From positions 62,001 to 126,000 of the forward strand of contig DASZBM010000002.1 in NCBI GenBank assembly GCA_035944135.1: a DNA stretch of 64,000 nt. Reading direction: 5' to 3'. Of this stretch, positions 1,208 to 63,856 are shown in pieces. Source of the DNA: Acidobacteriaceae bacterium. GTDB taxonomy: Bacteria; Acidobacteriota; Terriglobia; Terriglobales; Acidobacteriaceae. The number at the start of each line of letters is the position of its first letter. Position 1 is the first letter of the stretch. Below the pieces are notes generated by a model. The model did no database searches and had not been told where the DNA came from. It saw only the letters and a list, made by a program, of their open reading frames with translations. Both the position numbers and the translations under genes were made by a program.

Positions 1208-1257
1208 AGAAGCAGATCCCCTTCGGGGATGACAGAAAGAAAGGCAACGGCAAAAGC
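1208..1257. repeat. Dispersed hairpin repeat, family 2, copy A
   Basis: A 50-base element in the gap between the malate synthase and hydratase genes. A second copy at 56548-56597 matches at 45 of 50 bases. It contains a small hairpin, GATCCCC-ttc-GGGGATG; in the other copy both sides of one stem pair have changed together (C-G to T-A), so the structure is kept. It ends in an A-rich tail (GAAAGAAAGGCAACGGC). Confidence 0.75.
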
Positions 1258-30051: not shown

Positions 30052-30052
<1 letters not shown>

Positions 30053-30585: not shown

Positions 30586-30617
30586 CGCTTTACAACCACT
30601 CCTCGAAAGCTAAACAG

Positions 30618-31031: not shown

Positions 31032-31151
31032 CTTTGAGTGTAGGAGTGAGGTCGTCAAGGGTCAAGGCGAGCCGGTTGCTTCCTAAGCAAATCCAAGAAA
31101 CTGCTGCTTACAAGACAAGAGACGCCTGCGCGTGGACACTAAGAGGCATCA

Positions 31152-31895
31152 GTGCATCTCCTCACGCTTGAAATTCTTTTGGTGGTTTTCATCGCCTCGC
31201 TGGTCCGCTCCGTCTTCGGCTTCGGCGAGGCCCTCATCGCCGTCCCTTTGCTGGCGCTCATTCTGCCCATCCAGATTGCGGTTCCGCTCGCCGTTCTACT
31301 CTCCGTCGCGATCGCGGCCGTCGTGCTCGTTCAGGATTGGCGCAAAATTCATCTCGGCAGTACAGCCTGGCTTCTCGTCTCCACGCTCGCCGGAATTCCT
31401 GCCGGAATCTGGCTCTTGAGGTTCGCCCACCAGGATCTCCTCAAGGCCGCGCTCGCTGCCGTAATCCTGCTCTTTTCCGGCTACTCTCTGCTCGGCCGCC
31501 GCTCGCTGCGTCTGGAGCACGACAGCCGGCCGTGGCTCCTGGGCTGCGGATTCCTCGCCGGCGTTCTCGGCGGAGCCTACGGGATGAACGGCCCTCCGCT
31601 CGTCATCTACGGAGCGATGCGCCGCTGGTCGCCGCAGCACTTTCGCGCGACCCTGCAAGCCTACTTTCTGCCCGCAAGTGCAATCGCTATCGCCGGCTAC
31701 GCGCTCTCCGGTCTCTGGACAAAGCCGGTCACGCACTACTTTCTCGTCTCGCTCATTGCAGCGATTCCCGCCACGTTCCTTGGTGGCCTCATCAATCGCC
31801 GCCTGCGAGGAGACGCGTTCCTGCGCTACGTCTACATCGGCCTTATCTGCATCGGTATCGTCCTTCTGGTGCAAGCCGTCGGACACCACGTCTAG
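31152..31895 (+). CDS. Sulfite exporter TauE/SafE family permease
   Basis: 247 residues from GTG 31152, with eight predicted helices in two repeated halves. RSVFGFGEALIAVPLLAL (about 19-36) and its second-half counterpart GVLGGAYGMNGPPLVIYGAM are the paired TauE motifs. The family exports sulfite, sulfoacetate or other small organosulfur or organic anions; the substrate here is unknown. It is divergent from nuoA and convergent with pilD. Confidence 0.85.
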   Translation: MHLLTLEILLVVFIASLVRSVFGFGEALIAVPLLALILPIQIAVPLAVLLSVAIAAVVLVQDWRKIHLGSTAWLLVSTLAGIPAGIWLLRFAHQDLLKAALAAVILLFSGYSLLGRRSLRLEHDSRPWLLGCGFLAGVLGGAYGMNGPPLVIYGAMRRWSPQHFRATLQAYFLPASAIAIAGYALSGLWTKPVTHYFLVSLIAAIPATFLGGLINRRLRGDAFLRYVYIGLICIGIVLLVQAVGHHV

Positions 31896-31902
31896 CCGCT
31901 GC

Positions 31903-32820
31903 CTAGAAGAAACCCCGGTACCACTCCACCATCGGCCCACCGAGCAGCGCCGCGACCAGGCCGCCAATACAAAGGAATGTCCCGAGTGGAATCTGGCTCG
32001 CTGTAGTCGCCCGCCGCCGTGCGAGCAGCACAATGCCATAGGCCGCACCCAGAATCACGCCCACGAAGAACGCCACCATCGCGGACGCAAACCCCAGAAA
32101 CGCCGCAATCATCGCCATCAGCTTCACGTCGCCGAACCCCAGCCCCTCCTGCTTTCGGATCGCCTTATAGAGCGCCCGAATCAGCCACGGAATCGCCGCC
32201 GCCATGCACATCGCCAGCACGCGCCCCCACACAAGATGCTCCGGCCCCGTCATGAACACATCGCCCTGGCTGGCGAACGATCCTGGACTCGACAGTCGCA
32301 GACTATGTTGCGAATTCAGGTGAATGTCATAAGCCCCGCGCGGCAGGAAGATTGCCTGCACGCAGACGAGAAAAAAACCGATCGCCGTCCCCGTCAGCGT
32401 GAACGCATCCGGAAGCGTGTGCGTCTGCCAGTCCATGACCAGCAGCCCGATGAGCAGAAACCCCAGAATCACAAATTCCACGAGCGTCAGGTAGATATTT
32501 GTGGACGCTGCTCCGCCGACCGCCTCGACATACCCAATCCGCGACGCCAGCGCAAACCACAACCCTGTCGCCAACTCCACCGCCGGATACCGCCACGGAA
32601 TCGCCGCCTTGCAATTCCTGCACTTCGCCGCCAGCAGCACCCAGCTCAGCAGCGGAACATTGTCGTACCACAGGATCGGCGCCAGGCACTTCGGGCAGTG
32701 CGACCGCGGCTTCGCCACGCTCCGGTGTTCCGGCAACCGCGAAATGCAGACGTTCAAAAAGCTGCCGAAAAGCAGGCCAAGAAGAAACGCAGGGAGCTCA
32801 AAAGCGAGCATTATCAGCAT
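31903..32820 (-). CDS. pilD: Prepilin peptidase / N-methyltransferase
   Basis: 305 residues from ATG 32820; the open frame upstream lacks homology. Type IV prepilin peptidase cleaving and methylating pilins and type II secretion pseudopilins at the inner membrane. FGSFLNVCISRLP (about 14-26), two zinc-type CxxC pairs (HCPKCLAP and KCRNCKAAI), and aspartyl catalytic motifs MDWQTHTLPD and GFGDVKLMAM. An ~25-residue loop (YDIHLNSQHSLRLSSPGS) sits between helices. No pilin genes are nearby. Confidence 0.9.
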   Translation of the reverse strand: MLIMLAFELPAFLLGLLFGSFLNVCISRLPEHRSVAKPRSHCPKCLAPILWYDNVPLLSWVLLAAKCRNCKAAIPWRYPAVELATGLWFALASRIGYVEAVGGAASTNIYLTLVEFVILGFLLIGLLVMDWQTHTLPDAFTLTGTAIGFFLVCVQAIFLPRGAYDIHLNSQHSLRLSSPGSFASQGDVFMTGPEHLVWGRVLAMCMAAAIPWLIRALYKAIRKQEGLGFGDVKLMAMIAAFLGFASAMVAFFVGVILGAAYGIVLLARRRATTASQIPLGTFLCIGGLVAALLGGPMVEWYRGFF

Positions 32821-33055
32821 TCTTCTCAGTATAGGTCGCACTGCCAGAGCGTCCTCAGTCCCGCTCACCCCGCTGCGCACGCCGAGTTGCCCACTCTGGA
32901 GAAAAAAAGCAAACAATCCCTCAATTCGCCAACGAGGAGTGGACCAGGAAATCAACAGCCAGAGCAACATTCCGGAGGCCCCTGGGTTCCTAACATTGGG
33001 TGCCGGATAGAGGATCTCGAATCCGGCGAGAGTTCGGGCCCCAGGAGACTTGAAA

Positions 33056-33712
33056 ATGCGATTTATCAAATATTTAGCGTTGCTGGCAGTTCTCGGCGTT
33101 GTCTTGATGCCGGCGTCACAGTCACACGCGCAGATTGGAGTGGGTGTTGGAGTAGGCGTCCCAGCTTATCCTGCTCAGGCCTATCCCGCTCCGGCCTATG
33201 AAGCTCCCGCTCCGGCCTACGAAGCGCCGCCGGTCGATATGGCCTATGGCTATCCGCCTAACTGCCCGTATGGCTACTACAACTACGCTCCTTACGCCTG
33301 CGCGCCCTACGGTTTTTACGGCCCGAACTGGTTCTATGACGGCCTTTTCATCGGCGTCGGACCCTGGTATGGCTGGGGCTATCGCGGTTGGGGTTGGGGT
33401 CACGGCGGCTGGTCATGGGGTCGCGGCGGCTACGGCTACGGCCCGCATCCCGGCTACGGCTTCCGCGGCGGTGTAGGCTATCGCGGCGGCGTAGGCTACC
33501 GCGGTGGCGTGGGCGCCGGCTATCGTGGCGGCTACGCTGGCGGAGCTCGCGGCTATGTCGGCGGCGGCCATGCTTTCGCCGGTGGCGGAGCACGTGGCTT
33601 CTCCGGTGGCGGCGGAGCGCACTTCTCCGGCGGCGGTGGTGGCGGATTCCACGGCGGTGGCGGTGGCGGTCACTTCAGCGGTGGCGGCGGCCACGGCGGC
33701 GGACGACGCTAA
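33056..33712 (+). CDS. Exported glycine/tyrosine-rich low-complexity protein
   Basis: 218 residues from ATG 33056 (AGGAG eight bases upstream). Signal peptide with cleavage after about residue 26 (LLAVLGVVLMPASQSHAQ). The mature part has three zones: Pro/Ala/Tyr repeats (AYPAPAYEAPAPAYEAPP), a Tyr/Trp/Pro-rich middle (YGYPPNCPYGYYNYAPYACAP), and a Gly-rich C-terminus with repeats of YRGGVG and HFSGGGG and scattered His. The composition suggests an envelope or surface protein, perhaps metal-binding or adhesive. No enzymatic domain is seen. It is followed by a terminator, so it is a single-gene unit. Confidence 0.75.
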   Translation: MRFIKYLALLAVLGVVLMPASQSHAQIGVGVGVGVPAYPAQAYPAPAYEAPAPAYEAPPVDMAYGYPPNCPYGYYNYAPYACAPYGFYGPNWFYDGLFIGVGPWYGWGYRGWGWGHGGWSWGRGGYGYGPHPGYGFRGGVGYRGGVGYRGGVGAGYRGGYAGGARGYVGGGHAFAGGGARGFSGGGGAHFSGGGGGGFHGGGGGGHFSGGGGHGGGRR

Positions 33713-33739
33713 ATCACCTGAATCAACCTGAAGTTGCAA

Positions 33740-33772
33740 CGGCTACCCCTCGGGGTAGCCGTCCTGCTTTTG
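33740..33772 (+). terminator. Rho-independent terminator after the Gly-rich gene
   Basis: Perfect 10-bp stem CGGCTACCCC / GGGGTAGCCG with TC loop, followed by TCCTGCTTTT. Confidence 0.85.
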
Positions 33773-33786
33773 GAAGAATGTCCGAC

Positions 33787-34476
33787 CTATCTTCGCGACT
33801 GCCGCTCGCGCTCCACGCCATCCAGCGCAATCCACAGTGCCTGGGCGGCGCGCTCGGCAGAGTCCAGCGCGGCGTCGCCGGCGGTCGGATCACTGGCGAG
33901 TTCCTTATCGATCAGATCGCGCCACACGGCGGCATGGGCCACATCTGCCGTCTGGTGCAGCGTGAAGTACTTCGCCGTAGTCGCGTCTGCCGAATAATGA
34001 TTGGCCAATCCCTCAGCCTTGGTGGCTGCAATCTGCGGCACCTTGGACTCATACGCGTACAGCGCGGCCATCGCAGCTGCAGCCTTGGGCTCCTGCATCG
34101 CCGCCCGAAACGTCGTCAGCAGCGCCGCCATCTCGGGCTGCACGGTGTGGTTTCTCACCTCTGCCCTCGTCGCGCCCATGCCCGTCGCAAAGTCCATCCA
34201 CAGATCCGAGTGCGGCCGCGCCGTCGGGCTGTCTGTGCCTTCCTCTTCGGCGAGATTTCGCAACACCTCACGGCGCAGCTCCGAATCCGGCAGCCGGCTG
34301 TGCAGCGCGCTGAGATACGTCGGAAAGGCCGAAACGTGATGCCAATACTCAGCCGCGTACGCGCGTAGATCGTCGCGTGTCAGCTCTCCGCGCGACCACG
34401 CCTGATAGAACGGGTGCGTCAGCAGGTTATAGGGCGCGATGCGCGATTCAAGGGCGGTCCAGAAACTTGTGCTCAT
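33787..34476 (-). CDS. CADD-like di-iron protein (candidate p-aminobenzoate synthase)
   Basis: 229 residues from ATG 34476. All-helical TenA/PqqC-like fold resembling CADD, the Chlamydia protein that makes p-aminobenzoate by sacrificing its own tyrosine. Visible: NLLTHPFYQAW (Tyr24, likely the sacrificed position), AEEEGT and a following His, YAYESKVPQIAATK (Tyr-Glu with a Lys ten residues later), and YFTLHQTADVAH giving the His-x3-Asp-x2-His ligand set. The spacing between AEEEG and the next His looks a few residues longer than in CADD as I recall it. Convergent with the Gly-rich gene. The family is likely; activity is inferred. Confidence 0.75.
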   Translation of the reverse strand: MSTSFWTALESRIAPYNLLTHPFYQAWSRGELTRDDLRAYAAEYWHHVSAFPTYLSALHSRLPDSELRREVLRNLAEEEGTDSPTARPHSDLWMDFATGMGATRAEVRNHTVQPEMAALLTTFRAAMQEPKAAAAMAALYAYESKVPQIAATKAEGLANHYSADATTAKYFTLHQTADVAHAAVWRDLIDKELASDPTAGDAALDSAERAAQALWIALDGVERERQSRR

Positions 34477-34557
34477 AGGGGTCTCTCTCAAGATTAGGGA
34501 TGCGAGCCTGCTCAGGAGTTTACCTCGCCGGCCTGTGCGTCGGCGCTGATCGGGCCA

Positions 34558-36012
34558 TTAGAAATCCACATGCGTCCGCACGCTGAACACACCCACCGGC
34601 CCGCGGTCCTGGTTGTACCCGGGATGCTCGATGAACTGAAAATCGAACGAGCTGAACAGCCCGCGCCAGTTGTGCGCCGTGTAGTAGCTCTCCAGGATGT
34701 CCTCGCGCGCGTAGTTCAGCCGCCCATCGCCAAGCAGAAACCCCAGTCCGCCCAGCCCCAGATACGCCTGGTGGTCACGCTTGATCGCGTTGCTCACCAC
34801 CACCACGCCGACTCTGTCATTCGGCCGCGACCACCTATTGCCCGCCAGGTCCCCGCCGACCTCGAACGTCTGGTCCACCTCCGTGTACGCGTAGCTCTCG
34901 TGCTGGCCCTCGTTCCACCCGAACCGCCCAAACACCCGCAGGTCTTTCGGCAGTTCCTGCTCGAAGTTCAGCCCCACGCCGTACTTCACCGTCGTGCCGA
35001 ACGGATGATCCGTAATCACCGGCGTTGCAGCGGCATTCCCGCTCGCCCGCTCTTGCAGTGCCTTGATGTTCTGCTGGCGATAGTCACCCATATTCGCGTG
35101 GTTCACATATCCCACCAGCCGCACGGCGCCTTGGCGCTTTGGGTCGAGCCACCGCGCTAATGGCCCTCGTCCGTAGTCGATCTCATAGTTGTCGCCACGA
35201 GCCTTCCGCAAACTCGACTGCAGATCGATCCCATTCGCCACCGTCGGCATCAGGGCCATTCCATACCGCACAGCCCACGGTCCGTCGTCATACTCCAGCA
35301 CGGCCGCATACGTATAGCCGCGCGTGTCCGCCGCGTAGTCATAGGCTCCGTTATTGTCGACCGTCCAGTTCAGAAACTGCAGGTGCGAGTCCGATCCCGG
35401 CGTGTTCTGGTCGAAGATGTCCGGCAGGCTCAGCTTGCCTACCCGCAACTCAAACCGCCGATCCGGAACCTTCGTCGCCAGCGAAAACTGCGTCCGCTGC
35501 GCCTCCACCATCTTTGAGGTCAACCCGATCGTCTGGTGAATCTCCGCGCGGGCCACATACGGCTTCGGGCCCAGGTTCGGATTCCGCACCACGTCCAGGT
35601 TTGTGAAGCCCGCCAGCCCCAGCGCCTCGGAGATCCCGCGCCCGCCCGTCGACTCCAGATCGAAAATCGCGTCCGTGTTGTAGCGGGCGTTTCCGTGTAG
35701 TTCCAGTCCTGTAAACAGCGTCCCGACAAGCGAGGTCTTGTACTCCCCGCGCGCCAGCATGGAATTCGTCCCTGAGTACGGTGAGTGAAAGCCCGGATGT
35801 GCCTGAAAGATGATGTTCGCCTGCCCGGAAACCAGCCACCGCTGATCGTCCGAATGCGGAAACATCGTCACATGAGCCGGCCTGTTCGCGGCGTGGGGCG
35901 GATTCCCGCCGTCGGCATCCGGCTGGCCTGCCGGGTCCTGTTGCGCGTGCGCCATGACTACCGCAAACATGCAGAGGCTTAGCGTCAGTTTGTGGGCCAC
36001 GCGCAGAATCAT
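34558..36012 (-). CDS. OprB-family carbohydrate-selective porin
   Basis: 484 residues with signal peptide LSLCMFAVVMAHAQ. Outer-membrane beta-barrel: WLVSGQANIIFQAHPGFHSPYSG near residue 60, RAEIHQTIGL, RFELRVGKLSLPDIFDQN, FLNWTVDNNGAYDYAADTRG, FGRFGWNEGQ and AYLGLGGLGFLLGDG, and a terminal Phe (RTHVDF). These match the OprB family, which passes sugars or other small solutes. The gene starts 44 bases beyond a rho-independent terminator that lies in the 3' part of the leader ORF, suggesting that expression depends on readthrough. Confidence 0.85.
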   Translation of the reverse strand: MILRVAHKLTLSLCMFAVVMAHAQQDPAGQPDADGGNPPHAANRPAHVTMFPHSDDQRWLVSGQANIIFQAHPGFHSPYSGTNSMLARGEYKTSLVGTLFTGLELHGNARYNTDAIFDLESTGGRGISEALGLAGFTNLDVVRNPNLGPKPYVARAEIHQTIGLTSKMVEAQRTQFSLATKVPDRRFELRVGKLSLPDIFDQNTPGSDSHLQFLNWTVDNNGAYDYAADTRGYTYAAVLEYDDGPWAVRYGMALMPTVANGIDLQSSLRKARGDNYEIDYGRGPLARWLDPKRQGAVRLVGYVNHANMGDYRQQNIKALQERASGNAAATPVITDHPFGTTVKYGVGLNFEQELPKDLRVFGRFGWNEGQHESYAYTEVDQTFEVGGDLAGNRWSRPNDRVGVVVVSNAIKRDHQAYLGLGGLGFLLGDGRLNYAREDILESYYTAHNWRGLFSSFDFQFIEHPGYNQDRGPVGVFSVRTHVDF

Positions 36013-36030
36013 CGGAATTCGAAAGGGTTA

Positions 36031-36276
36031 TTAGAAGACGGGCAGATAAGGCCCGAATAAAAAGGCCCGCCATGGGGAGAGCCTCCACACGGCGGGCCGC
36101 GTTAATTCACCGTCATCAGCGGTCGCATCGTTCTCCAGGCGCGACCAGATGCCCGCGATCGGGCAGCGCTCGTCCCCAGTCTCAACGAAGGTGCGAGTCA
36201 GGTGCATGCGGCTAAACCGCGGCAGCATCGGCAGGTTCTCTGCTGGGCGTACCCAGCGATTGGTCAGGTTCTTCAT
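36031..36276 (-). CDS. 81-residue leader ORF overlapping a terminator ahead of the porin
   Basis: ATG 36276 with AGGAG eight bases upstream, so translation is plausible. Residues 1-45 (MKNLTNRWVRPAENLPMLPR ... TFVETGDERCPIAGIW) are polar with one Cys; I know no family. The last ~25 codons run straight through a rho-independent terminator. Both other frames have stops just before the hairpin (TGA, TAA within GGTGAATTAACG), so a one-base indel would have ended the ORF there; the true end is uncertain. It is divergent from the FrmR-like gene and shares its control region. Confidence 0.55.
   Translation of the reverse strand: MKNLTNRWVRPAENLPMLPRFSRMHLTRTFVETGDERCPIAGIWSRLENDATADDGELTRPAVWRLSPWRAFLFGPYLPVF
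36056..36098 (-). terminator. Terminator/attenuator between leader ORF and porin gene
   Basis: On the minus strand GGCCCGCC pairs with GGCGGGCC, with an inner TGGAGG/CTCCCCA pairing, followed at once by TTTTTATT. It lies inside the 3' part of the 81-codon ORF, about 44 bases before the porin start. Confidence 0.8.
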
Positions 36277-36329
36277 GGGAGTCTCCTCCTTTCTGCGCCG
36301 CATTCGGCGCCACGTTCCTTTAGATGTAG

Positions 36330-36348
36330 TATACCCCGGTAGGGTATA
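36330..36348. promoter_or_regulatory. Perfect palindrome, likely operator of the FrmR-like repressor
   Basis: TATACCC-cggta-GGGTATA, a perfect 7-5-7 inverted repeat in the divergent control region. Family members (CsoR/RcnR/FrmR) bind G/C tracts flanked by TA-rich half-sites of this kind. On the minus strand its left end supplies a TATACT -10 box for the leader ORF and porin; on the plus strand TATAAA at its right end could serve the repressor. Confidence 0.65.
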
Positions 36349-36381
36349 TAAAAGACGTAAAATTCTCCCCCGGGAGGCTCT

Positions 36382-36642
36382 GTGGAGATCGACCGCGAAC
36401 GCACGAAGCTCATCAACCGCGCCAAGCGCATTCACGGCCAGATGGAGACCGTCGAGCGCAGCCTCATCGAAAACCGCGACTGCACGGACGTTCTGATGCT
36501 TCTCGCCGCCGTCAAAGGCGGCATCAATGGCCTGATGGCCGAGATTCTCGAGGACCACATCCGCCTGCACATCGGCGCCCGCCCCATGACGCCAGAACTC
36601 GGCGAAGAGCTCATCGACCTCGTCCGCGCGTACCTCAAGTGA
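36382..36642 (+). CDS. FrmR-like transcriptional repressor (CsoR/RcnR family)
   Basis: 86 residues from GTG 36382, with GGGAGG about five bases upstream. All-helical metal- or aldehyde-sensing repressor. RAKRIHGQMETVERSL and the sensor Cys34 in ENRDCTDVLMLLAAVKGG, then NGLMAEILEDHIRLHI and the C-terminal LIDLVRAYLK closely follow E. coli FrmR (NGLMAEVLESHIR, LVRAYLK). FrmR's Pro2 is not present (MEIDRER), so a metal sensor of RcnR type remains possible. The divergent leader ORF and porin are the likely target. Confidence 0.85.
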   Translation: MEIDRERTKLINRAKRIHGQMETVERSLIENRDCTDVLMLLAAVKGGINGLMAEILEDHIRLHIGARPMTPELGEELIDLVRAYLK

Positions 36643-36711
36643 TCCGCCACGCTCATCCCCTTTGACTCGCGATTGGCCATCGAATAAGCTGTCGATACAC
36701 GGGAAAGGAGG

Positions 36712-36777
36712 ATGATCCAGCCTATGAAATCTGACAGTACCAGTTGCAACACAACACGTGAGGTGACTGAGGCTTAG
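36712..36777 (+). CDS. Possible 21-residue peptide ORF
   Basis: ATG 36712 abuts AGGAGG; the in-frame ATG at 36724 has the same AGGAGG twelve bases upstream, so neither spacing is ideal. The peptide is polar (MKSDSTSCNTTREVTEA from the second ATG). It begins a region with two hairpins and a terminator. It may be a leader peptide, a small gene, or chance. Confidence 0.3.
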   Translation: MIQPMKSDSTSCNTTREVTEA

Positions 36778-36879
36778 AGCATCCGCGCTCTAGACCTGGC
36801 AGTTCTGGCAATCTTCAGAATCTCCTGCCGAGGCCCATCCAGCACGGATGCCTCAGGTCAATCTCCACAGTTCACCGCA

Positions 36880-36909
36880 AAAGGGCTCGCCGACACGGCG
36901 AGCCCTTTG
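36880..36909. terminator. Strong hairpin terminator upstream of thiG
   Basis: Perfect 13-bp stem AAAGGGCTCGCCG / CGGCGAGCCCTTT with ACA loop. T-run is weak on plus (TTTGTGT) and better on minus (CCCTTTTGC). Confidence 0.7.
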
Positions 36910-37027
36910 TGTCTCTCGCCTCTCTGCACAACCTGGGTGCCCATCCATGCGCCGCTTCATCCCGCATGGGCGGGGGAATAACCGTCGGCCTTCTGAACAT
37001 GTAGCCTCTAGCCTCTAAAATCTTCTT

Positions 37028-37834
37028 ATGAGCACAGCCGTCGTCGACCAACCCGCCACCACCACCGACGACCTCATCATCGCCGGCCGCCGCTTCCGCT
37101 CCCGCCTCATCGTCGGCACCGGCAAGTACAAGGACGGTCCCGAGACTGCCGCCGCCATCGAGGCCTCCGGCGCCGAGATGGTCACCGTTGCCGTCCGCCG
37201 CGTCAACCTCGACCGCTCCAAGGAATCCCTCCTCGACTTCATCGACCCCACGCGCTTCTTCCTCATGCCCAACACCGCCGGCTGCTACACCGCCGAGGAA
37301 GCCATCCGCGCCGCCCGCCTCGCCCGCGAGGTCGGCCTCTCCGACTGGGTCAAGATCGAGGTCATCGGCGACCAGCCCACCCTCTACCCCGACGTCCAGG
37401 CCACCGTCGAAGCTACGCGCGTCCTCGTCAAGGAAGGCTTCACCGTCCTGCCCTACACCACCGACGACATCGTCTTCGCCAAGCGCCTCATCGACGTTGG
37501 CGCCGCCGCCGTCATGCCCCTCGGCGCGCCCATCGGCACCGGGCTCGGCATCGCGAACAAGTACACCCTGCGCATGATGCGCGAGCTCATCACCGAAGTC
37601 CCACTCGTCGTCGACGCCGGCCTCGGCACCGCCTCCGACGCCGCCCTCGCCATGGAGCTCGGCTTCGACGCCGTCCTCCTCAACACCGCGATCGCCGGCG
37701 CAAAGAACCCCATCCTCATGGCCTCCGCGATGAAGAAGGCCGTCGAAGCCGGCCGCGAAGCCTTCCTCTCCGGCCGCATGCCCAAAAAGCTCTACGCCAG
37801 CGCCAGCTCACCCATCGAAGGCATCTCGCGTTAG
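37028..37834 (+). CDS. thiG: Thiazole synthase ThiG
   Basis: 268 residues, TIM-barrel enzyme making the thiazole phosphate of thiamine from DXP, dehydroglycine and ThiS-thiocarboxylate. Blocks: [35 protein letters not shown], Schiff-base Lys109 in [24 protein letters not shown], and [19 protein letters not shown]. No thiS, thiF, thiH/O or thiC is adjacent and no TPP riboswitch precedes it. Its stop overlaps the convergent GNAT stop. Confidence 0.96.
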
Positions 37835-38454
37835 CGGGCAAGCTTCTCCTGCAGCGCCCGCTTCACCTCAGGCCACTCACTCCCCACAATCGAAAACCGC
37901 AGCGTATTCCTCGGCACGAAATCCGCCGCCATCCTGTGCGCCCGCAGCGTGCCTTCGAGCTTCGCCCCAATCCGCTTGATCGCCGCCGCCGAGCGCTCAT
38001 TCCGCTCATCCGTGCAGAAGCTCACCGAGTTCATCCGCCACACCTCGAACGCGTGTGTCAGCATCAGCAGCTTCGCCTCGGTATTCGCCGCCGTCCGCAC
38101 CGCCGAAGCCGTCAGCCACGTGTAGCCGATCTCGCCTGTGTCGTACACATGCTTGCCGTGGTGCGCCGACCCCACCGGCCACGCCCACCGCTCCAGTCCA
38201 TAAATCCGCGTCGACCCAATCACGACACCATCAGCCTTCCGCACAGTCACAAACGGCACCGCCGTCCCCGCATCTCTCCACGCGATCGCAGTCTCGATAT
38301 ACCTCTCGACCGCGTCGCGCCCCACCGGAACAAGACTCCACTTGTAGATCGACGTATCCGCCGCCGAAGCCTCCACCAGCGCCGCGGCATGCTCGCGCTC
38401 CAGCGGCTCCAGCCTCACATGCTCACCCTCGAGCGTTACAAGCTCCATCGCCAT
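37831..38454 (-). CDS. GNAT acetyltransferase, RimJ/RimL type
   Basis: 207 residues from ATG 38454, overlapping the VOC gene stop (TAATG), so these two genes are coupled. RimJ/RimL-like N-acetyltransferase: [17 protein letters not shown] at the N-terminus, [32 protein letters not shown] holding the acetyl-CoA loop region, and [23 protein letters not shown]. Substrate could be an N-terminal amine or a small amine. Confidence 0.8.
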
Positions 38455-38831
38455 TACAGTCGCTGTCCGAAGCACACCAGGTCGCCGTCAGGCGCAACGA
38501 TCAACAACTCGCGCTGGTGATACGGCTTGTCCGCGGGTCCGTGCACATCGCCCTTCGGCAGCTTGTCCAGCTTCGCCTTCAACTCCTCATATAGCGCGTC
38601 CACGTCGCGGACATCGAAGTAGTACCGAAAATTCCGCACGCCGCGCGGTGCATCCGCCGCATCCTCGCGTCCCCATATGCGAATCCCGCAACCATCGCGC
38701 TGCATGTACGCGTAGTCGCTCACTCGCGTGTGCGCCGTAAACCCGAGCACCTCTTCAAAGAACCGCACCGCCGCCTCAAACTCCCCAATCGGAACGTGCA
38801 TGAATGGCGTCGTTTGAATGAAGTTCGACAT
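38454..38831 (-). CDS. VOC/glyoxalase-fold protein
   Basis: 125 residues. One vicinal-oxygen-chelate unit pair: HVPIGEFEAAVRFFEEVLGFTAH opens the first module; FRYYFDVRDVDALYEELKAKL the second; the end is RELLIVAPDGDLVCFGQRL. The family includes glyoxalases, bleomycin-resistance proteins and dioxygenases, using a divalent metal. The residues visible do not specify which. Confidence 0.75.
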   Translation of the reverse strand: MSNFIQTTPFMHVPIGEFEAAVRFFEEVLGFTAHTRVSDYAYMQRDGCGIRIWGREDAADAPRGVRNFRYYFDVRDVDALYEELKAKLDKLPKGDVHGPADKPYHQRELLIVAPDGDLVCFGQRL

Positions 38832-38881
38832 TCGTCACAGCTTACGTCAAGCTCCGCCGGATGACACGCAAAACCGGCACG

Positions 38882-40510
38882 TCACGCCATGCACGCTCGC
38901 GTCCACGGATCCTGGCCCACCCTCGTCCCCGGCGGCAGCACGGAAGAGTACGCCGCCAGCTTCGCCCGCAACTCGTTCACATCCTCCGGATGCACAGCAT
39001 AGAACGCGATCGTGAACCCGCCAACCGTCGCATGACGACTCGGGCACTTCGGCGTTAGGCTTCCCGCATACGTCCACTCCTGCGGAAGCGCCTCCGCTCC
39101 CTGGAACCACTCGACGTAAACCGCCACCACTTTCACGCCCTGCTCTGCCGCGAGCTGCCGCATCGCATCCGTGTCGTACGCATGCGCCAGCTTCAGGTTC
39201 AGTACTTTGCTCGAGGTGAGCCCGAACAAATCCAGCATCTGCCCATCGTGAAAATAGCTCACTGCCCCCACATCATTCACCGCAATCGGCGCGTCAGGAT
39301 AGCTCTTCGCGAAGAAGTGCGCCATCTGATACTGCTGCAGAAAAATCGACTGCACCGCATCCGCATTGGTCGCGAGGATCACCGCCGCGCGCGGCACCAG
39401 CGCGAGCACCCCACAAGCCACCAGCCATCCGGCAATCTTCTTCGACTGCACAGCGCTCAGAATTCCCCGGCACTCTTCCAGCAGCACAAACAGGCTGAAG
39501 ATCGTCAGCACCACAAGGTAGCTCTCATATCTTCCAAGCTGTCCCATGCGCGATAACAGCGTGTGCAGCACCGACAATCCAACGGTGATGATCCCCGCAG
39601 CCGCGGCGCCGCGCATCGCTCCACGCGCACGTATCGACGCGATGCTCAGTCCCAAAACAACTGCCCATCCGACCGGCAGCAGATGTTTTCCCGCATACTT
39701 CAGGTTCTGCAGCACCGGAGCAATCCGGTCCGAGAACGCAGCCGACGCCGGTGCAGTCTTCAACAGCAACGAGTTCGGAAAGAAGTGCGACCCAGGATGG
39801 CTCATGCTGAAGATGCCGAACGCCAGGATCGGAAGAAATCCCGCGCCCGCAACAGCCGTCGCCAGACCCGCACGCCTCTGCCACACAAGCAGCGCACAGA
39901 TGCACGCAACCTCAAACGCAATCTCATAGCGCGACGCAGTCGCCACCGCTGCCCACACAATCAGCGGCGCCACGCTTTTCACATCACGCGGACGATCCAG
40001 CACCTCAGCCGCCGCAGCTAGTAAGCCAAGTGCCGTGATGCTTTCGAGCACATGCTCCAGGCCCAATGACGTGAGGCTGCTCAAAGGCGTAAGCACTGCA
40101 ATTGAGAGCAGCGCGACGGCCCGCATCCACTCTGACCTCACTCCGATCAGCCAGAGCCACCGATGCGCCAACCAGAGCAGAACCAGCGACAGCACAACAT
40201 TCAGCACAAACGGCAGCCACACGTGCAGGCCAACGATCGCTCCGAGCGCTGCCAGCAGAAACGGCCACACCACGGAGGACGACGCGCCCGTAAATCCATA
40301 CGGCGTCACGCCAAACACATGATGCGTCAGCAGGTTCTTTGAAATCGCGAGGTGAATGTACGCATCATCTACCGCATACATTTGCTGCAGCCGGTCAATG
40401 TGCCATACCTGAACCAACAGCACACCCAGCATGAACAGGTAGGTCGCTGTTGCTATCCAGTACGGCCGCAGGCTGCCGCGTGGTGCCTCTGCGCTGCTCG
40501 CATCAGGCAT
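38882..40510 (-). CDS. Multi-pass membrane protein, GT-C glycosyltransferase-like
   Basis: 542 residues with about ten or more transmembrane helices in the first ~400 residues and a soluble C-terminal domain. YAVDDAYIHLAISKNLLTHHVFG (about 45-67) carries the acidic DD motif in the first extracytoplasmic loop, as in GT-C enzymes (arabinofuranosyl- and mannosyltransferases using polyprenyl-phosphate sugars). The soluble end (GAVSYFHDGQMLDLFGLTSS, VYVEWFQGAEALP) resembles C-terminal domains of uncharacterised bacterial GT-C proteins. Role in envelope glycan or glycoprotein assembly is inference. Confidence 0.65.
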   Translation of the reverse strand: MPDASSAEAPRGSLRPYWIATATYLFMLGVLLVQVWHIDRLQQMYAVDDAYIHLAISKNLLTHHVFGVTPYGFTGASSSVVWPFLLAALGAIVGLHVWLPFVLNVVLSLVLLWLAHRWLWLIGVRSEWMRAVALLSIAVLTPLSSLTSLGLEHVLESITALGLLAAAAEVLDRPRDVKSVAPLIVWAAVATASRYEIAFEVACICALLVWQRRAGLATAVAGAGFLPILAFGIFSMSHPGSHFFPNSLLLKTAPASAAFSDRIAPVLQNLKYAGKHLLPVGWAVVLGLSIASIRARGAMRGAAAAGIITVGLSVLHTLLSRMGQLGRYESYLVVLTIFSLFVLLEECRGILSAVQSKKIAGWLVACGVLALVPRAAVILATNADAVQSIFLQQYQMAHFFAKSYPDAPIAVNDVGAVSYFHDGQMLDLFGLTSSKVLNLKLAHAYDTDAMRQLAAEQGVKVVAVYVEWFQGAEALPQEWTYAGSLTPKCPSRHATVGGFTIAFYAVHPEDVNELRAKLAAYSSVLPPGTRVGQDPWTRACMA

Positions 40511-40556
40511 TGAAGAAGTTGTTCTCCTGTTGTTGGACTGCAGAACGTTGTCCGGA

Positions 40557-41957
40557 CTAATCCAGCGTGTACATCGCCAGCCCGCTCAGCAACTTCGGAT
40601 AAAAGTCCGTCGACTTCTGCGGCATCACTTCCAGGTTCAGCGAAATGTCCTTCATCTGCTCCAGCGTCACCGGCTTGATCAGGAAAGCCACATCGGCTTT
40701 TCCGTTCTTCACGCGCTCCACGGATTCATCCGCTTCACGGTAATAGCGAATCACCTCGCCCTTGCGGATCGTGTCCTCATCCAGTCCAAAAATCCGCTCC
40801 AGCACTACCTTGTGCAACTGCGTCACATCCAGTTGCTGCTGTCGCGGCGACAAGCCCTTCAGCACCGGCGCAATCGCCTCTGGCTTCGGCGTCAATAGCA
40901 GGTTGCCGTCACTCGCCGCCGCAACGAACGCCACTCCATTCGTCGCATTCAACTTCGCCAGCAGTTCCGCTGGCGTCAGCGACCCCTCCAACTCCTGAAC
41001 GTCGAAGTACTGCTTCGCCTTCTCCGCAAAATCTTTGATCGAAAAATCCGCGAGGCCAGACACCACACGATGCGTCGGCAGAATCGTGATGCCCGGCGCA
41101 TCCATGTTTACGAACGTCATCATCATCGCTTGCTCGGGAAACGCAGGTTGTGGCAGGCCGTCGGCGGTCAGCTTCGGCTCCGCGTCCGCATCGCAGTGCA
41201 ACTGCTCCGCGCGCTCATGCATGTATCCCACCGAGGTTTCGTAACGGTGATGTCCATCCGCGATCAGCAGCCACTTGTCCTTCATCGCATCCAGCACGCG
41301 GGTGATCAGGTTGCAGTCCGTGAGCTTCCACACTCGATGCACCACGTGATACTCGTCCGTGATTTCCAGATCCGGCACGCGCGAAACATGTGAGACCGTG
41401 GCAGCGTTGCCCACGTTTGGCGGAGGCACGTCGAAGATCACCTTCTCCGCCGTGAATGTCGGATCGGAGTACAGCATGTAAATCTGCTCGCAATACGCGC
41501 GCGTTGCCTTGAACAGCGCGAGCCGGTCCGACTTGTGCTTCGGGAACGTCTGCTCGTGCCTGTAAACAACGTGGTCGGCATAATCGTGAAGCTGCCCGAG
41601 CGCAATAAATCCGCGGCGCTCGCGAATGTCGGCCTTCACGCCTGTATCGCCACCCGTCCCCGGAACCGTGTAGGTCTGCGAGTACCCATACAGGGCGGGC
41701 ACCGTCTCCTTGCACAGCACGCCCTCATCCTGCCATTGCTCCAGCGTCTCCGCCGCGCGGGTGTACACATTGTGCTGCTCGTTGTCGTCCGGCTGATGTT
41801 TCCCAAGCACAACGCGAACCAGGTTGTACGGACTCAGGTTGTAGTAGCGCTCCTGCATCTGCTTATCGATCTTGTCGTAGGGCTGCGTCACCACATCGGC
41901 CATGTTGACGCGGGTTGGGTCATAGCGAAGCGCGCGAAACGGAAACAAACGTGCCAT
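40557..41957 (-). CDS. DUF1015 family protein
   Basis: 466 residues from ATG 41957, the point where DUF1015 proteins normally start (MARLFPFRALRYDPTRV); an ATG 39 bases earlier would add 13 residues. Conserved features: VTQPYDKIDKQMQERYYNLSPYNLVRV, YGYSQTYTVPG, RRGFIALGQLHDY, HEQTFPKHKSDRLAL, LIADGHHRYETSVGYMHE and NMDAPGITILPTHRVV. The family is linked to amino-acid metabolism and in one report to serine kinase activity, but its bacterial role is not settled. It is divergent from a GNAT gene. Confidence 0.85.
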   Translation of the reverse strand: MARLFPFRALRYDPTRVNMADVVTQPYDKIDKQMQERYYNLSPYNLVRVVLGKHQPDDNEQHNVYTRAAETLEQWQDEGVLCKETVPALYGYSQTYTVPGTGGDTGVKADIRERRGFIALGQLHDYADHVVYRHEQTFPKHKSDRLALFKATRAYCEQIYMLYSDPTFTAEKVIFDVPPPNVGNAATVSHVSRVPDLEITDEYHVVHRVWKLTDCNLITRVLDAMKDKWLLIADGHHRYETSVGYMHERAEQLHCDADAEPKLTADGLPQPAFPEQAMMMTFVNMDAPGITILPTHRVVSGLADFSIKDFAEKAKQYFDVQELEGSLTPAELLAKLNATNGVAFVAAASDGNLLLTPKPEAIAPVLKGLSPRQQQLDVTQLHKVVLERIFGLDEDTIRKGEVIRYYREADESVERVKNGKADVAFLIKPVTLEQMKDISLNLEVMPQKSTDFYPKLLSGLAMYTLD

Positions 41958-42007
41958 CCCTCCATTGTAGACAAGGCTCGCGGACTCATTCCGCATACAC
42001 TGGGCGA

Positions 42008-42535
42008 ATGGTTTTGAGGAAGGCCGACGCAGCAGACTACGACGAGATCATCGATCTCGCGAACCTCGCCTATCGCGGACGCGAGGGCGCAACTCCAAGC
42101 TGGAATATCGAAAAGGGAATCGTCGGCGGACAGCGGCTCGACCATTCACTGCTCCGCGAAGAACTGGCCGCAAAACCTGACGGAGCGCTGCTGATCTATC
42201 GCGAAGAAGCTGATGGCCCGCTCCTCGGGACCGCATGGTTGAACCCGGAAGAAGATGGTGTGTGGTCGCTCGGTCTGCTGACCATTCGGCCAGAGCTGCA
42301 GAATCAGCAGCTGGGGCGCAAGCTGCTCGATGCAGTAGAAGATTACGCGCGTTCGCGTGGCGCAAAGCGCATCCGAATCGGTGTGCTGCACGTGCGTGAC
42401 ACGCTCATCGCCTGGTACGAGCGCCGAGGGTATCGTGCAACGGGAGATACAGAACCATATCCGGCCGACGATCCTCGCTTCGGTACGCCTCTCCAGGACA
42501 ATCTGCAGTTCGTCATCATGGAGAAGCAGGTCTGA
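42008..42535 (+). CDS. GNAT family N-acetyltransferase
   Basis: 175 residues from ATG 42008. VLRKADAADYDEIIDLANLAYRG opens the fold; GVWSLGLLTIRPELQNQQLGRKLLDAVEDYARSRG holds the acetyl-CoA pyrophosphate loop (Q-x-x-x-G-R/K); VRDTLIAWYERRGYRATGDTEPYP closes it. The substrate is unknown. One base separates its stop from the convergent MoaD-like gene's stop. Confidence 0.85.
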   Translation: MVLRKADAADYDEIIDLANLAYRGREGATPSWNIEKGIVGGQRLDHSLLREELAAKPDGALLIYREEADGPLLGTAWLNPEEDGVWSLGLLTIRPELQNQQLGRKLLDAVEDYARSRGAKRIRIGVLHVRDTLIAWYERRGYRATGDTEPYPADDPRFGTPLQDNLQFVIMEKQV

Positions 42536-42536
42536 T

Positions 42537-42845
42537 TCAGCCGCCTGCAATCGCGCCGAGAATAATCAGTGGCTCGCGTCCGCTGACAATCTCCTCGGGC
42601 AGTGGAGCATCCACCGATTCGTGAGACAGATCCTCGTTGCACGCGAAGAAGCGAATGAAGGCCCGACGTTCTTTCGTTGTCTGATCGCGAATCGTTCCGC
42701 ACAACGTTGGGTGCGTCCCTTCGAGCGCATCCAGCACGCGCCGCAGCGTCACCGGCGCATCAATCTCAAGCGTAACCTCGTGGCCGCTCGTGATCTTCGC
42801 ATGACGCAGCAGCGGCACGGGTAGTTCAACGCGGATGCGACTCAT
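42537..42845 (-). CDS. MoaD/ThiS-like ubiquitin-fold protein
   Basis: 102 residues ending GAIAGG, the di-glycine tail that sulfur-carrier and ubiquitin-like modifiers need for adenylation. Beta-grasp pattern: [48 protein letters not shown]. It is longer than ThiS (~65) or MoaD (~81), with an insert [20 protein letters not shown]. It overlaps the Asp-box propeller gene by four bases. No moaE, moeB or thiF is near, so the activating enzyme must be elsewhere. Confidence 0.8.
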
Positions 42846-43957
42846 GGGAGCGTTTGCACCTCAATGGAAAGCACCGGTGGCAGGTGTTCGGTGATCGTGT
42901 TCCATGAATCACCGGCATCAGGCGAGCAGTAGATCTGGCCGCCGGTTGTGCCAAAGTAAACGCCGCAGTCATCCAGCGCATCGACGGACATTGCGTCGCG
43001 CAGAACATTCACGTAGCAATCCTGCTGCGGCAGTCCCTTCGTCAGCGGCTCCCATTCATTACCGCCGGACTTGCTGCGGAAGACCTGCAGCTTGCCGTCG
43101 AGAGGGAAGTGCTCGGAGTCGGACTTGATGGGCACAACGTAAACCGTCTCCGGTTCATGCGTGTGCACATCGATCACGAAGCCGAAATCCGTCGGAAGAT
43201 TGCCGGAAATCTTGGTCCACTGATCACCTGCATCATCCGAGCGCATCACGTCCCAGTGCTTCTGCATGAACAGCGTCTTCGGCGTTTTCGCATTCATCGC
43301 GATGTGATGGACGCAGTGGCCAACCTCGGCAGTCGGATCCGGAATGTACTTCGAGTACAGCCCCTTATTGATTGGCTTCCAGCTCTTGCCTGCATCGTCG
43401 CTTCTGAACGCTCCCGCCGCAGAAATTGCGATGACAATGCGATCGGGATTCGTGGGATCAAGAATGATCGTATGGAGGCACATGCCGCCAGCACCGGGCT
43501 GCCACCCCGGGGCGGTGGCGTTCGTGCGCAGGCCGGAGAGCTCCGTCCAGTTCTGCCCGCCGTCCGTAGATTTGAAGAGCGCTGCATCTTCCGCTCCGGC
43601 GTAAACCGTATCGGGATCTGTCAGCGAAGGCTCGAGGTGCCAGACGCGCTTGAACTCCCAGGGGTGGGGGGTGCCGTCGTACCACTGGTGGGTGCCGGGG
43701 ACGCCGTCGTAGGTGAACTGGGCGCTGACGGGGTTCCAGGTCTGGCCGCCGTCGTCGGAGCGCTGCACCTGCTGGCCGAACCAGCCGGAGCACTGCGAGG
43801 CGTAGAGGCGGTTCGGGTCGGCGGGCGAGCCCTTCAGGTGGTAGATCTCCCAGCCGGTGAAGTGAGGGCCGGTGATCTTCCAGTCCTTGCGCTTGCCGTC
43901 GGAGGAGAGGATAAAGGCGCCTTTGCGGGTTCCGGCGAGGACGCGGACGGAGCTCAT
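42842..43957 (-). CDS. Asp-box (BNR) beta-propeller protein
   Basis: 371 residues, no signal peptide, so probably cytoplasmic. Five Asp-box motifs (S-x-D-x-G-x-x-W): [45 protein letters not shown], one per blade of a propeller. Often annotated as sialidase-like or WD40/YVTN/BNR protein, but sialidase catalytic residues are not evident. Its stop overlaps the start of the MoaD/ThiS-like gene, so the two are translated together and likely work together. Confidence 0.75.
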
Positions 43958-44049
43958 CGAGCGGTCTCCTGTGTGAGAGGTGGTCTGTCTGGGGCCTCGA
44001 GAAGCATACGCTCGGCAGCAGTGGAAGTTCAGGGGAAATTTGGTTTGAT

Positions 44050-56529: not shown

Positions 56530-56671
56530 GTCCTCAGCGGACACACCAGAAGCAGATTCCCTGCGGGAATGACAGAAAGAAAAGCAAAGGCAAAAGCGAC
56601 CGCGCGTCCTAACGCGCGATACCCCACCCTTTCGCTGCGCGAAAGGATGGGCCACCCGGCATCCTTGCTAG

Positions 56672-56714
56672 CCCACTCATGCGCGATGAAACCGCGCATG
56701 AATGGGGCACCCGG
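56672..56714. repeat. Dispersed hairpin repeat, family 1, copy B
   Basis: CCCACTCA, stem TGCGCG-atgaaac-CGCGCA, then TGAATGGGGCACCCGG. Compared with the copy in thiE (CACGCG-atgaggc-CGCGTG), two stem pairs differ on both sides so pairing is preserved. Confidence 0.7.
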
Positions 56715-56745: not shown

Positions 56746-56784
56746 GAAATACGGAGATCCTTCGGCTACGCTTCAGGATGACGG
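56746..56784. repeat. Dispersed repeat, family 3, intergenic copy
   Basis: 39 bases, 35 identical to 62335-62373 at the 5' end of the APC permease gene. Starts GAAATAC, ends TCAGGATGACGG. Confidence 0.75.
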
Positions 56785-61622: not shown

Positions 61623-62291
61623 ATGAGGGACGGGTTTCCAAGGCTGTATGCGATTGTGGACCGGGCGACGCTGGATGCGCGGGGGATGAGTGCGCGCGAG
61701 TTTGCGCGGGAGTTGCGCGCGGCGGGCGTGCGGCTGGTGCAGTATCGGGATAAGGGGAACGGGCCACAAGAAATTTTGAGGGCGGCGCGGGAGATCGATG
61801 CGGCGTTTGAGGGCGTGGAGGTCATTCGGGTGATGAATGATCGCGCGGACCTGGCGGTGTTGGCGGGGTGGGAGGGCGTGCATGTGGGGCAGGGGGATTT
61901 GGGGGTGGAGGCGGTGCGGAGGGTGTTCGACCCCACCCACCACGCGATGAGGCCGCGTGATGAATGGGGCACCCGGATGGTTGGGATTTCGACGCACAAT
62001 GAGGAGCAGGTGGGGGCGGCGGTGGGGGCGGGGCCGGACTATGTGGCGGTTGGGCCGGTGTTTCGGACGGCGTCGAAGGCGAATCCGGAGCCGGTGGTGG
62101 GGCTGGAGCTGGTGCGACGGGCGAGGGCGATGACGGAGCTTCCGGTGGTGGCGATTGGAGGGATAACGCTTGCGAATGCGCGCAGTGTGATTGAGGCCGG
62201 GGCGGATTCGGTGGCAGTGATTGGTGGGCTGTTTGTTGAGGGCAGGCGGGTGAGTGAGGTTGCGCGGGACTTTCTCGAGATTTTGGGGTAG
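61623..62291 (+). CDS. thiE: Thiamine-phosphate synthase with an in-frame repeat insertion
   Basis: 222 residues. Couples HMP-PP and thiazole phosphate to thiamine phosphate. LVQYRDKGN, VMNDRADLAVL, GVHVGQGDLGVEAVRR, GISTHNEEQ, DYVAVGPVFRTASK and PVVAIGGITLANA are all in place. Residues 104-118 (PTHHAMRPRDEWGTR) are extra, between VEAVRRV and MVGIST where homologues have a few residues; the 45 coding bases are a copy of the family-1 repeat. It follows accC and ends 11 bases before the permease gene. No TPP riboswitch is seen. Confidence 0.94.
   Translation: MRDGFPRLYAIVDRATLDARGMSAREFARELRAAGVRLVQYRDKGNGPQEILRAAREIDAAFEGVEVIRVMNDRADLAVLAGWEGVHVGQGDLGVEAVRRVFDPTHHAMRPRDEWGTRMVGISTHNEEQVGAAVGAGPDYVAVGPVFRTASKANPEPVVGLELVRRARAMTELPVVAIGGITLANARSVIEAGADSVAVIGGLFVEGRRVSEVARDFLEILG
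61932..61976. repeat. Dispersed hairpin repeat, family 1, copy C, inside thiE
   Basis: 45 bases, exactly 15 codons: CCCACCCAC, stem CACGCG-atgaggc-CGCGTG, TGAATGGGGCACCCGG. The last 16 bases are identical to copy B at 56699-56714. Confidence 0.8.
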
Positions 62292-62302: not shown

Positions 62303-63856
62303 GTGACTCCTCAGACATCAGTGGCTCAAGAGGCGAAATACAGAGGTCCTTCGGCTGCGCCTCAGGATGACGGCGGCTCTGTGGGGGTACGTGCGCCGCA
62401 CTTTGTGCAAGGGTTGGGGTTGTTTTCGGCGACGGCGATTGTGATGGGCTCGATGATCGGGTCGGGCATTTTTATCGTGCCCGCCGAGATGAGCCGCGTG
62501 GTGGGGTCGCCGGCGCTGTTGATTGCAGCGTGGGCGGTGACGGCGCTGATGACGGTGATTGGCGCACTGAGCTATGGCGAGCTGGCGGCGATGATGCCGA
62601 AGGCTGGCGGGCAGTATGTGTACCTGCGCGAGAGTTTGGGGCCGATTTGGGGATTTTTGTACGGGTGGACGCTGTTTACGGTGATCCAGACGGGAACGAT
62701 TGCCGCGGTGGGCGTGGCGTTCGGTAAGTTTCTGGGGGTGTTTTTCCCGAGCATCAGCCAGACGAACTGGATTGTGCACGTGGGCTCGGGGAATGTGGGG
62801 CTGAGCACGGCGAATTTGGTGGGGATCGTCGTGATTGTGCTGCTGACGTTCACGAATACGCGCGGCGTGAAGACGGGCGCGGCGGTGCAGAACGTTTTCA
62901 CGACGACGAAGGTGCTGGCGCTGCTGGGCGTGATCGCGGTGGGGCTGATTGCGAAGAATGCAGTTGCGCACGCTGCGAATTTTGGCGTGGGCTGGCATAA
63001 CTTCTGGGCGGGAGCGCACTGGGGAACGCCGCATGTGGTGCAGGTTGGGTCGTTCCTTGGGCTGGGCGGCGGGACGGCTGTGGTCGGCGTGCTGACGGTG
63101 GTTGCGGTGGTGCAGGTGGGGTCGCTGTTTTCGAGCGATGCGTGGAATAACGTGACGTTCACGGCGGGCGAGGTGCGGAATCCGAAGCGGAACCTGCCGC
63201 TGTCGCTGGCGATTGGAACGGGCGCGGTGAGCCTGCTGTATATCGCGTGCAACTTTGTGTATCTGAACGTGCTGCCGATGAGCGGGATTGCGAATGCACC
63301 GCAGGACAGAGTGGCGACGGCGGTGATGCAGACGGCGTTTGGGCCAGTGGGTGCGAAGCTGATGGCGGCGGCGATCCTGGTGAGCACGTTCGGGTGCGTG
63401 AACGGGATGGTGCTGGCGGGGGCGCGCGTGTATTACGCGATGAGCCAGGATGGCCTGTTCTTCAAGAGCACGGGGAAGCTGGACAGCAAGGGCGTGCCGA
63501 AGAACTCGCTGTGGATGCAGTGCGCGTGGACGTGCCTGCTGTGCCTGAGCGGACAGTACGGCAACCTGCTGGATTACGTAATCCTGGCGGCGCTGGTGTT
63601 TTATGCGCTGACGATTGTGGGGCTGTTTGTATTGCGGCGGACGGAGCCGGATGCGGCGCGTCCGTACAGGGCGTTTGGGTATCCGGTGCTGCCGGGGCTG
63701 TACATCGTGATGGCGGTGTGGATTTGTGGCGTGCTTTTGCGATACAAACCCCAGTACACTTGGCCGGGACTGATTCTGGTGCTGCTTGGCGTGCCGGTGT
63801 ACCTGGTGTGGAGATGGGTGGGAAGTAGAGATCAGAGATTAGAGATTAGAGATTAG
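62303..63856 (+). CDS. APC-family amino acid permease
   Basis: 517 residues from GTG 62303, about 12-14 helices. LFSATAIVMGSMIGSGIFIVPAEM is the glycine-rich helix 1 of APC transporters; LSYGELAAMMPKAGGQYVYLRE, FSSDAWNNVTFTAGEVRNPKRNLP and NGMVLAGARVYYAMSQDGLFF follow. The first ~35 residues include translated family-3 repeat (KYRGPSAAPQDDGGS). A GTG in VGVRAPHFVQ could be the true start, which would put the repeat in the 5' UTR. Substrate unknown. Confidence 0.9.
   Translation: MTPQTSVAQEAKYRGPSAAPQDDGGSVGVRAPHFVQGLGLFSATAIVMGSMIGSGIFIVPAEMSRVVGSPALLIAAWAVTALMTVIGALSYGELAAMMPKAGGQYVYLRESLGPIWGFLYGWTLFTVIQTGTIAAVGVAFGKFLGVFFPSISQTNWIVHVGSGNVGLSTANLVGIVVIVLLTFTNTRGVKTGAAVQNVFTTTKVLALLGVIAVGLIAKNAVAHAANFGVGWHNFWAGAHWGTPHVVQVGSFLGLGGGTAVVGVLTVVAVVQVGSLFSSDAWNNVTFTAGEVRNPKRNLPLSLAIGTGAVSLLYIACNFVYLNVLPMSGIANAPQDRVATAVMQTAFGPVGAKLMAAAILVSTFGCVNGMVLAGARVYYAMSQDGLFFKSTGKLDSKGVPKNSLWMQCAWTCLLCLSGQYGNLLDYVILAALVFYALTIVGLFVLRRTEPDAARPYRAFGYPVLPGLYIVMAVWICGVLLRYKPQYTWPGLILVLLGVPVYLVWRWVGSRDQRLEIRD
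62335..62373. repeat. Dispersed repeat, family 3, at 5' end of permease gene
   Basis: 39 bases, 35 identical to 56746-56784; ends TCAGGATGACGG. Open in the permease frame. Confidence 0.75.

Follow-up and report, generated by a model that had tools for sequence, protein, structure and literature searches.

A Repeated, REP-Like Palindrome Lies in Frame Within thiE of an Acidobacteriaceae Bacterium

The gene for thiamine phosphate synthase, thiE, of an Acidobacteriaceae bacterium carries a REP-like palindrome of which the genome has at least 85 copies; it would have been moved as single-stranded DNA by a RAYT-type transposase, oriented in accordance with GC skew and tolerated in protein loops, a reading to which we assign a probability of about 0.78. 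The inserted sequence is a genomic repeat, its site is empty in most relatives, the reading frame of the host gene is kept, further copies lie inside other predicted genes, a RAYT gene adjoins related palindromes, and the copies are oriented with the skew.

The Element and Its Host Gene

The gene was studied within a window of 64,000 nucleotides, by which we mean the whole stretch of contig DNA analyzed. The features of this window that matter here are the following.

61623..62291, + strand: thiE, thiamine phosphate synthase of 222 aa, carrying the insert (PF02581, E 6e-46)
61932..61976, - strand (tag, then 5' arm on the - strand): A-type palindrome within thiE, 53.7 bits by covariance model
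56672..56714, - strand: intergenic A-type palindrome, 72.0 bits, one of the 15 copies behind the covariance model
56623..56659, - strand: intergenic B-type sister palindrome (CCCACCCTTTC..GAAAGGATGGGCCACCC), 34.9 bits
36933..36974, + strand: degenerate A-type palindrome of opposite orientation, in a stretch of reversed skew, 38.0 bits
2056..2097, - strand: distant or decayed A-type copy, 16.9 bits, E 0.064, tail with 2 mismatches
1208..1257, + strand: D-type repeat (TTCGGGGATGACAGAAAG), repeat family D2
56548..56597, + strand: second D-type repeat of the same family, 90% identical
62348..62373, + strand: third repeat type (CCTTCGGCTGCGCCTCAGGATGACGG), just 3' of thiE, with another copy at 56759-56784

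ThiE scores 149.2 bits against TIGR00693 (cut-off 145.1), and the closest sequence of named source among the best 120 of 7999 matches is the ThiE of a Bryocella sp. (71% identity); in contigs from named organisms, ThiE matched 5 loci, at 49% identity for the best of them. Bases 61932-61976 read CCCACCCACCACGCGATGAGGCCGCGTGATGAATGGGGCACCCGG and are translated on the + strand as PTHHAMRPRDEWGTR. On the - strand they fold into the tag CCGGGTG followed by a 16-bp stem, with zero mismatches when G.T wobbles count as pairs; the + strand has C.A mismatches at some of the positions that are paired in this fold. The initial annotation had placed the insert in frame and between two core blocks of the protein, and both points hold. 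In a structure model with a mean pLDDT of 89.7, the insert is located between helix 95-102 and strand 119-124, and residues 109-116, which belong to it, are the sole segment of at least three residues with a pLDDT below 50; the insert occupies a helix-to-strand loop that is predicted to be disordered. The length of exactly 15 codons given in the same annotation is right for the span of the repeat and not for the net gain, which amounts to 12-14 codons: from anchor to anchor, the protein measures 39 residues here and mostly 25-27 in relatives with an empty site. In two alignments with solved ThiEs, 13 residues of the insert stretch face a gap. Beyond thiE, the N-terminal part of the permease ORF that follows (62303-62420) overlaps the palindromic repeat 62348-62373, and the true start of this ORF is probably near 62420, where the gene finder placed it.

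A Palindrome Repeated Across the Genome

Evidence for a repeat is weak when it is drawn from the window alone, where the 16-base tail, allowed up to three mismatches, is matched 3 times (0.64 expected) and a count of 3 is also reached by 5 of 100 shuffles, and decisive when it is drawn from the whole genome. Over 4.43 Mb, the tail with up to two mismatches is matched 70 times and the reversed pattern 0 times, which bears out the proposal that the thiE insert is a copy of a genomic palindrome. The two-arm pattern CCCACYC..RRTGGGSCACCC is matched 59 times and its reversed control 0 times. The covariance model finds at least 85 matches at E 0.01 or better, the thiE copy among them, a lower bound since 150 of 4086 candidates were scored, and under a model lacking the thiE copy, the thiE insert scores 53.7 bits (window E 9e-10). 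The intergenic copy at 56672-56714, recognized from the window sequence, shares with the thiE copy an identical end of 17 bases, one more than had been counted, and the two stem pairs that differ between these copies are both compensated, as described. The distant copy reported at 2056-2097 is less secure, its tail matching with two mismatches and its overall score being weak, and two palindromes of the window had been missed altogether, namely the oppositely oriented one at 36933-36974 and the sister palindrome at 56623-56659.

The structure of the element is preserved among its copies. In an alignment of 15 other copies, all of equal length, 99.0% of the cells are paired and three pairs have changed on both sides; none of 500 shuffles reaches the pairing or the change value, and sliding the arms of this alignment abolishes pairing. 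The common form is a GGGTG tag standing at, or one base ahead of, a stem of 13-16 bp that pairs along its full length, with G.T wobbles, on one strand. The tag-bearing strand forms a complete stem in both copies that were folded. CACCC, the tail form of the GGGTG tag, survives intact in 65 of the 70 tail matches, for which up to two mismatches were permitted at any position. A second alignment comprises 24 of the 30 loci with the two-arm pattern, six of other types being left out; GGGTGCCCCATTC and GTGGG stand in all of its rows, largely fixed by the selecting pattern, and the tag is invariant in 24/24 copies, though that pattern fixes it there.

Within the genus, 21 of 28 genomes (the present one among them) contain the two-arm pattern; in a sample of 80 genomes of the family, 67 contain it and the reversed pattern is matched once in total. 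In the present genome (G000), the copies are mostly single or arranged in clusters of the same orientation. Palindrome positions in relatives were listed for part of the genomes, that of G153 in part; in two of these genomes, G140 (on C1) and G151, CCCACCCTGCCGCGC.. palindromes form inverted pairs about 0.1-0.2 kb apart, which are REPIN-like and unlike the single copies of G000.

Copies Inside Other Genes

Within the 568 kb examined, which is no full census, 65 copies were defined by pattern. Of these, 41 stand between genes, 3 straddle a gene end and 21 (in several frames) lie inside 18 CDSs predicted by our own dicodon scheme. A Pfam family is found for 15 of the 18 products and no Pfam match for the remaining 3, and ClpB, ThiL, MutL, RecO, MurI, YoaA and TruA score above the NCBIfam cut-offs. 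In thiE, clpB, recO, thiL and a gene for a YoaA-like helicase the copies fall between conserved parts, and in mutL into the linker; comparison with solved ClpB and ThiL locates the insert between aligned blocks. Other copies are close to the C-terminus (hemE, truA, and the xerC-like and cysG-like genes) or to the N-terminus (murI, C10:391500 and one of the two in C8:72369-74939), where they may precede the true start. One of the two thiL copies consists of the repeated tail only. In total, two sense and three antisense frames are used, the third antisense frame only via the repeated tail in thiL; the sixth frame of the palindrome holds a TGA in the tail.

ClpB offers a parallel to ThiE. Its span ending at the conserved LKEEVDEED stretch measures 51-52 residues in 15 of the 22 relatives that match the search expression (3 of 26 loci gave no match). 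It reaches 70 residues in the present genome, where it contains PTHPGDKTAGMNGAP; G154 has 97 residues and PTHDDKTVMNGAP, and G159 has 92 and a D-like peptide. The ClpB linker (L210 in G150, L224 in G159 and L233 in G154) appears as a second loop that is filled by different repeat-like peptides in each genome. In addition, the HemE peptide TNPGAPHLDSEMWARA (L012) and GAPHLDSEMWD in the ClpB linker of G150 (L210) share a peptide, which suggests a further coding repeat family.

Orientation Follows Local GC Skew

All 85 model matches agree in orientation with the GC skew within 5 kb, as do 69 of the 70 tail-pattern matches, the skew at the exception being 0.019. On contig C2, every tail-pattern match as far as 712 kb has one orientation and every match beyond 980 kb the opposite one; the sign of the skew changes between 790 and 850 kb. 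DnaA is found on C4, where the skew passes from -0.18 to +0.16, which makes C4 the probable site of the origin and C2 that of the terminus. The window contains a natural control, as the skew is negative from about 24 to 44 kb (-0.21 at 36001-40000) and the sole copy there, 36933-36974, is also reversed. This stretch (24001-44000), about 20 kb of weakly to clearly negative skew within an arm of positive skew, may be an ancient inversion or an acquired island.

Gene direction was rejected as the source of this pattern. When the majority coding strand within 5 kb is taken for each copy, only 21 of 66 match it, and in-gene copies are found on the same strand as the host gene in 10 cases and on the opposite strand in 12. 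Nor does the skew come from gene direction, since it differs little between + and - genes (0.149 and 0.137 in the left arm of C2, -0.200 and -0.165 in the right arm). Other repeat types also agree with the skew (D 11/11, E 9/9, C3 4/4 and B 5/5, with 0 matches for a fifth motif), as counted in 568 kb chosen mostly around A-type copies. In G047, which belongs to another genus, all 12 pattern matches were tested and 12/12 copies follow the skew. The strand lock is not universal. Of 23 pattern matches in G140, 11 were tested, in stretches around copies without a close inverted partner, and only 6 of these 11 agree with the skew (5/5 where it is at least 0.10 and 1/6 where it is below 0.07); the inverted pairs that are common in G140 cannot agree with it. 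The skew itself flips several times in G000 and G047, which makes the link to replication direction an indirect one.

An orientation that goes with local GC skew suggests single-strand insertion tied to replication. A RAYT-type HUH/Y1 transposase would move the palindrome as single-stranded DNA, and the target DNA would probably be exposed at the replication fork, which would fix the orientation of the element; in-frame insertions in flexible loops, in any stop-free frame, would be tolerated and kept. The copies and inverted pairs of G140 count against insertion at the fork, and the presumed lagging-strand template carries the weaker hairpin with the tag 3', contrary to a simple IS608-like model.

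The lock could also have arisen after insertion, through selection that keeps the stable hairpin off the lagging-exposed strand or retains the copies as KOPS-like marks, KOPS being polar chromosome marks. Agreement in 85 of 85 cases is very strict for an insertion bias alone, and in both folded copies the presumed lagging template gives the less stable hairpin (-12 vs -14.3 and -15.4 vs -16 kcal/mol). Nevertheless, this difference in hairpin energy is small and the lock is common to repeat types of different sequence, and we regard selection as an unlikely source of the orientation, albeit one of some weight. Decay of wrong-way copies is a less likely source, since near-identical copies also show the lock.

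Transposase Genes Beside the Palindromes

Two Y1 transposase genes are present in this genome, one of them with an in-frame stop. The stop-free gene, L062:1387-1854(-), is assigned to NF047646 (REP_Tyr_transpos) with 104.8 bits against a cut-off of 80, and its product carries HVH and YIHMNP. Covariance-model matches lie on both sides of it (C2:555412 and C2:556113), and these are palindromes of the B type, as at 56623-56659 in the window, not of the A type. The second gene, L061:1453-1716 (G000:C10:482.5 kb), is interrupted by a TGA and adjoins other palindromes, of the GCACGGCTTCAGCCGTGCC and TTCAGGGGCTTTAGCCCCTGA types. The NF047646 assignment concerns the L062 gene; the transposases of relatives were identified as Y1_Tnp matches. 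In six relatives (G116, G150, G140, G151, G152 and part of G153), 5 of 32 such matches have palindromes beside them. Both sides are occupied within about 0.4 kb at G153:C4:376123, G116:C5:123401 and G140:C1:915359; at G151:C32:38246 and G153:C12:2558 one side is, likewise within about 0.4 kb. A rough density estimate made by hand predicts fewer than one. No strict-pattern palindrome stands beside the other 27 of the 32.

These 27 unflanked matches, the B-type flanks and the single stop-free Y1 gene of this genome count against movement by a RAYT. The palindromes might have spread by recombination or template switching at hairpins with no transposase involved, the adjoining RAYTs being passengers or relics, and the scarcity of stop-free and flanked Y1 genes as well as the mixed repeat clusters, such as that at C1:453 kb of this genome, would suit such a history. 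It is hard to reconcile with the Y1 genes of G000, G153, G116 and G140 that have palindromes to either side and with the established pairing of RAYT and REP (PMC6006769), and we consider it improbable. We infer from sequence that a RAYT moves the palindromes; nothing in the data shows a benefit from the inserts.

One ThiE Loop, Several Inserts

The initial annotation named an ordinary loop as the alternative to a mobile palindrome and an alignment of related ThiEs as the way to tell them apart. The ThiE set included 27 genomes of the genus with a ThiE-like match (this genome being P0001; 24 gave rows and two none). The insert is absent from 22 of 24 same-genus ThiEs, and the other two have a different insert; three genomes of the genus, this one included, carry repeat-like inserts at the site, that of G153 being one of 90 pattern matches in its genome. 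Empty relatives and the genome-wide repeats together support a mobile palindrome, inserted in frame within conserved coding sequence. Although loop length varies among ThiEs and the repeat is weakly significant in the window alone, ordinary variation with a chance likeness to a repeat was rejected as exceedingly improbable in view of the genome-wide counts of 70 vs 0 and 59 vs 0, the score from the model built without the thiE copy, and the repeat-like inserts in three genomes.

On a wider scale, the site is empty in 57 and filled in 86 of 143 ThiE sequences, one (P0034) having been dropped ahead of these counts and of the tree. Peptides of five recurring types are found in 80 of the 86 filled sequences, and 6 fit no type; for relatives outside G153 and G159, the type was read by regular expressions from the peptide and not from DNA. 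In the present genome, A, B and D occur as DNA repeats; K and S are recurring peptides only. One frame of the D-type repeat at 1208-1257 gives a 14-residue peptide that resembles peptides at the ThiE site in relatives. On the ThiE core tree, at least 27 changes between filled and empty are counted, 7 with only branches of SH-aLRT at or above 95. The ThiE loop thus appears to be an insertion hotspot, with other palindromes filling the same loop in other lineages.

Relation to Known Repeat Systems

The element resembles the REP/REPIN sequences served by RAYTs (TnpA_REP) in being a short tagged palindrome of tens of copies, mostly between genes, in flanking a Y1 transposase gene, and in the HVH and YIHMNP of that transposase, which fit the class 2 signature as set out in PMC6006769. 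It differs in its tag, GGGTG, the REP tag GTAG (or GT[AG]G) being absent from the aligned copies, in the copies of this genome being mostly single or in same-orientation clusters (inverted pairs occur in G140 and G151), in the 21 of 65 copies that lie inside predicted genes, and in an orientation that follows GC skew. Strand-polar single-strand insertion at the lagging-strand template is described for IS200/IS605 elements (PMC6006769). The Rickettsia palindromic elements (RPEs) evoked by the initial annotation remain a useful analogy, as they too are in-frame insertions into conserved genes, whereas identity with them finds no support: the CGTC end reported for the RPEs of R. conorii (PMC3733652) is absent from the 24- and 15-copy alignments, the phylum is another, and a transposase link exists here, while PMC3733652 reports none for CGTC repeats; RPEs were compared by description. 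A tyrosine transposase group of Acidobacteria, flanked by inverted repeats and named for five genes (PMC3733652), shares with our case the phylum, a repeat-flanked Y1-type transposase and the dispersal of some repeats. The GGGGWSAS motif of these TIRYT TIRs, which only some of them share according to that source, is absent from the copies, where GGGGCACC is found. As far as the sequences can tell, the thiE palindrome fits a RAYT-served REP better than an RPE.

The kind of element is already in print: REPs have been described inside ORFs of several species, with Opitutus terrae and R. conorii having the largest numbers, as have repeat-flanked transposases of Acidobacteria (PMC3733652). In-frame gene insertions in Acidobacteria find no mention in the accessible part of that article, and a literature search made mostly outside subscription journals returned no report of an acidobacterial in-gene palindrome or of REP orientation tied to the replication strand. 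Going by this literature, three things are new: the presence of the tag family within genes of Acidobacteria, a ThiE loop that different repeats have filled time and again, and the strand lock.

Implications

It is conceivable, and we put it forward tentatively, that several unrelated palindrome families of Acidobacteria insert as single strands at replication forks, always with one polarity and time and again into the same tolerant loops of enzymes, ThiE and ClpB for example, and that they would thereby provide a standing source of in-frame peptides and a fossil record of replication direction. The near-perfect lock in two genomes makes a replication-coupled, single-strand movement of REP-like elements, which is plausible and unproved, open to testing. 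Relatives with an empty site, together with those in which different palindromes fill one and the same enzyme loop, form a natural series that makes the cost of an insert directly measurable. Finally, there is a warning for annotation, as loop "insertions" of acidobacterial proteins may be repeat DNA.
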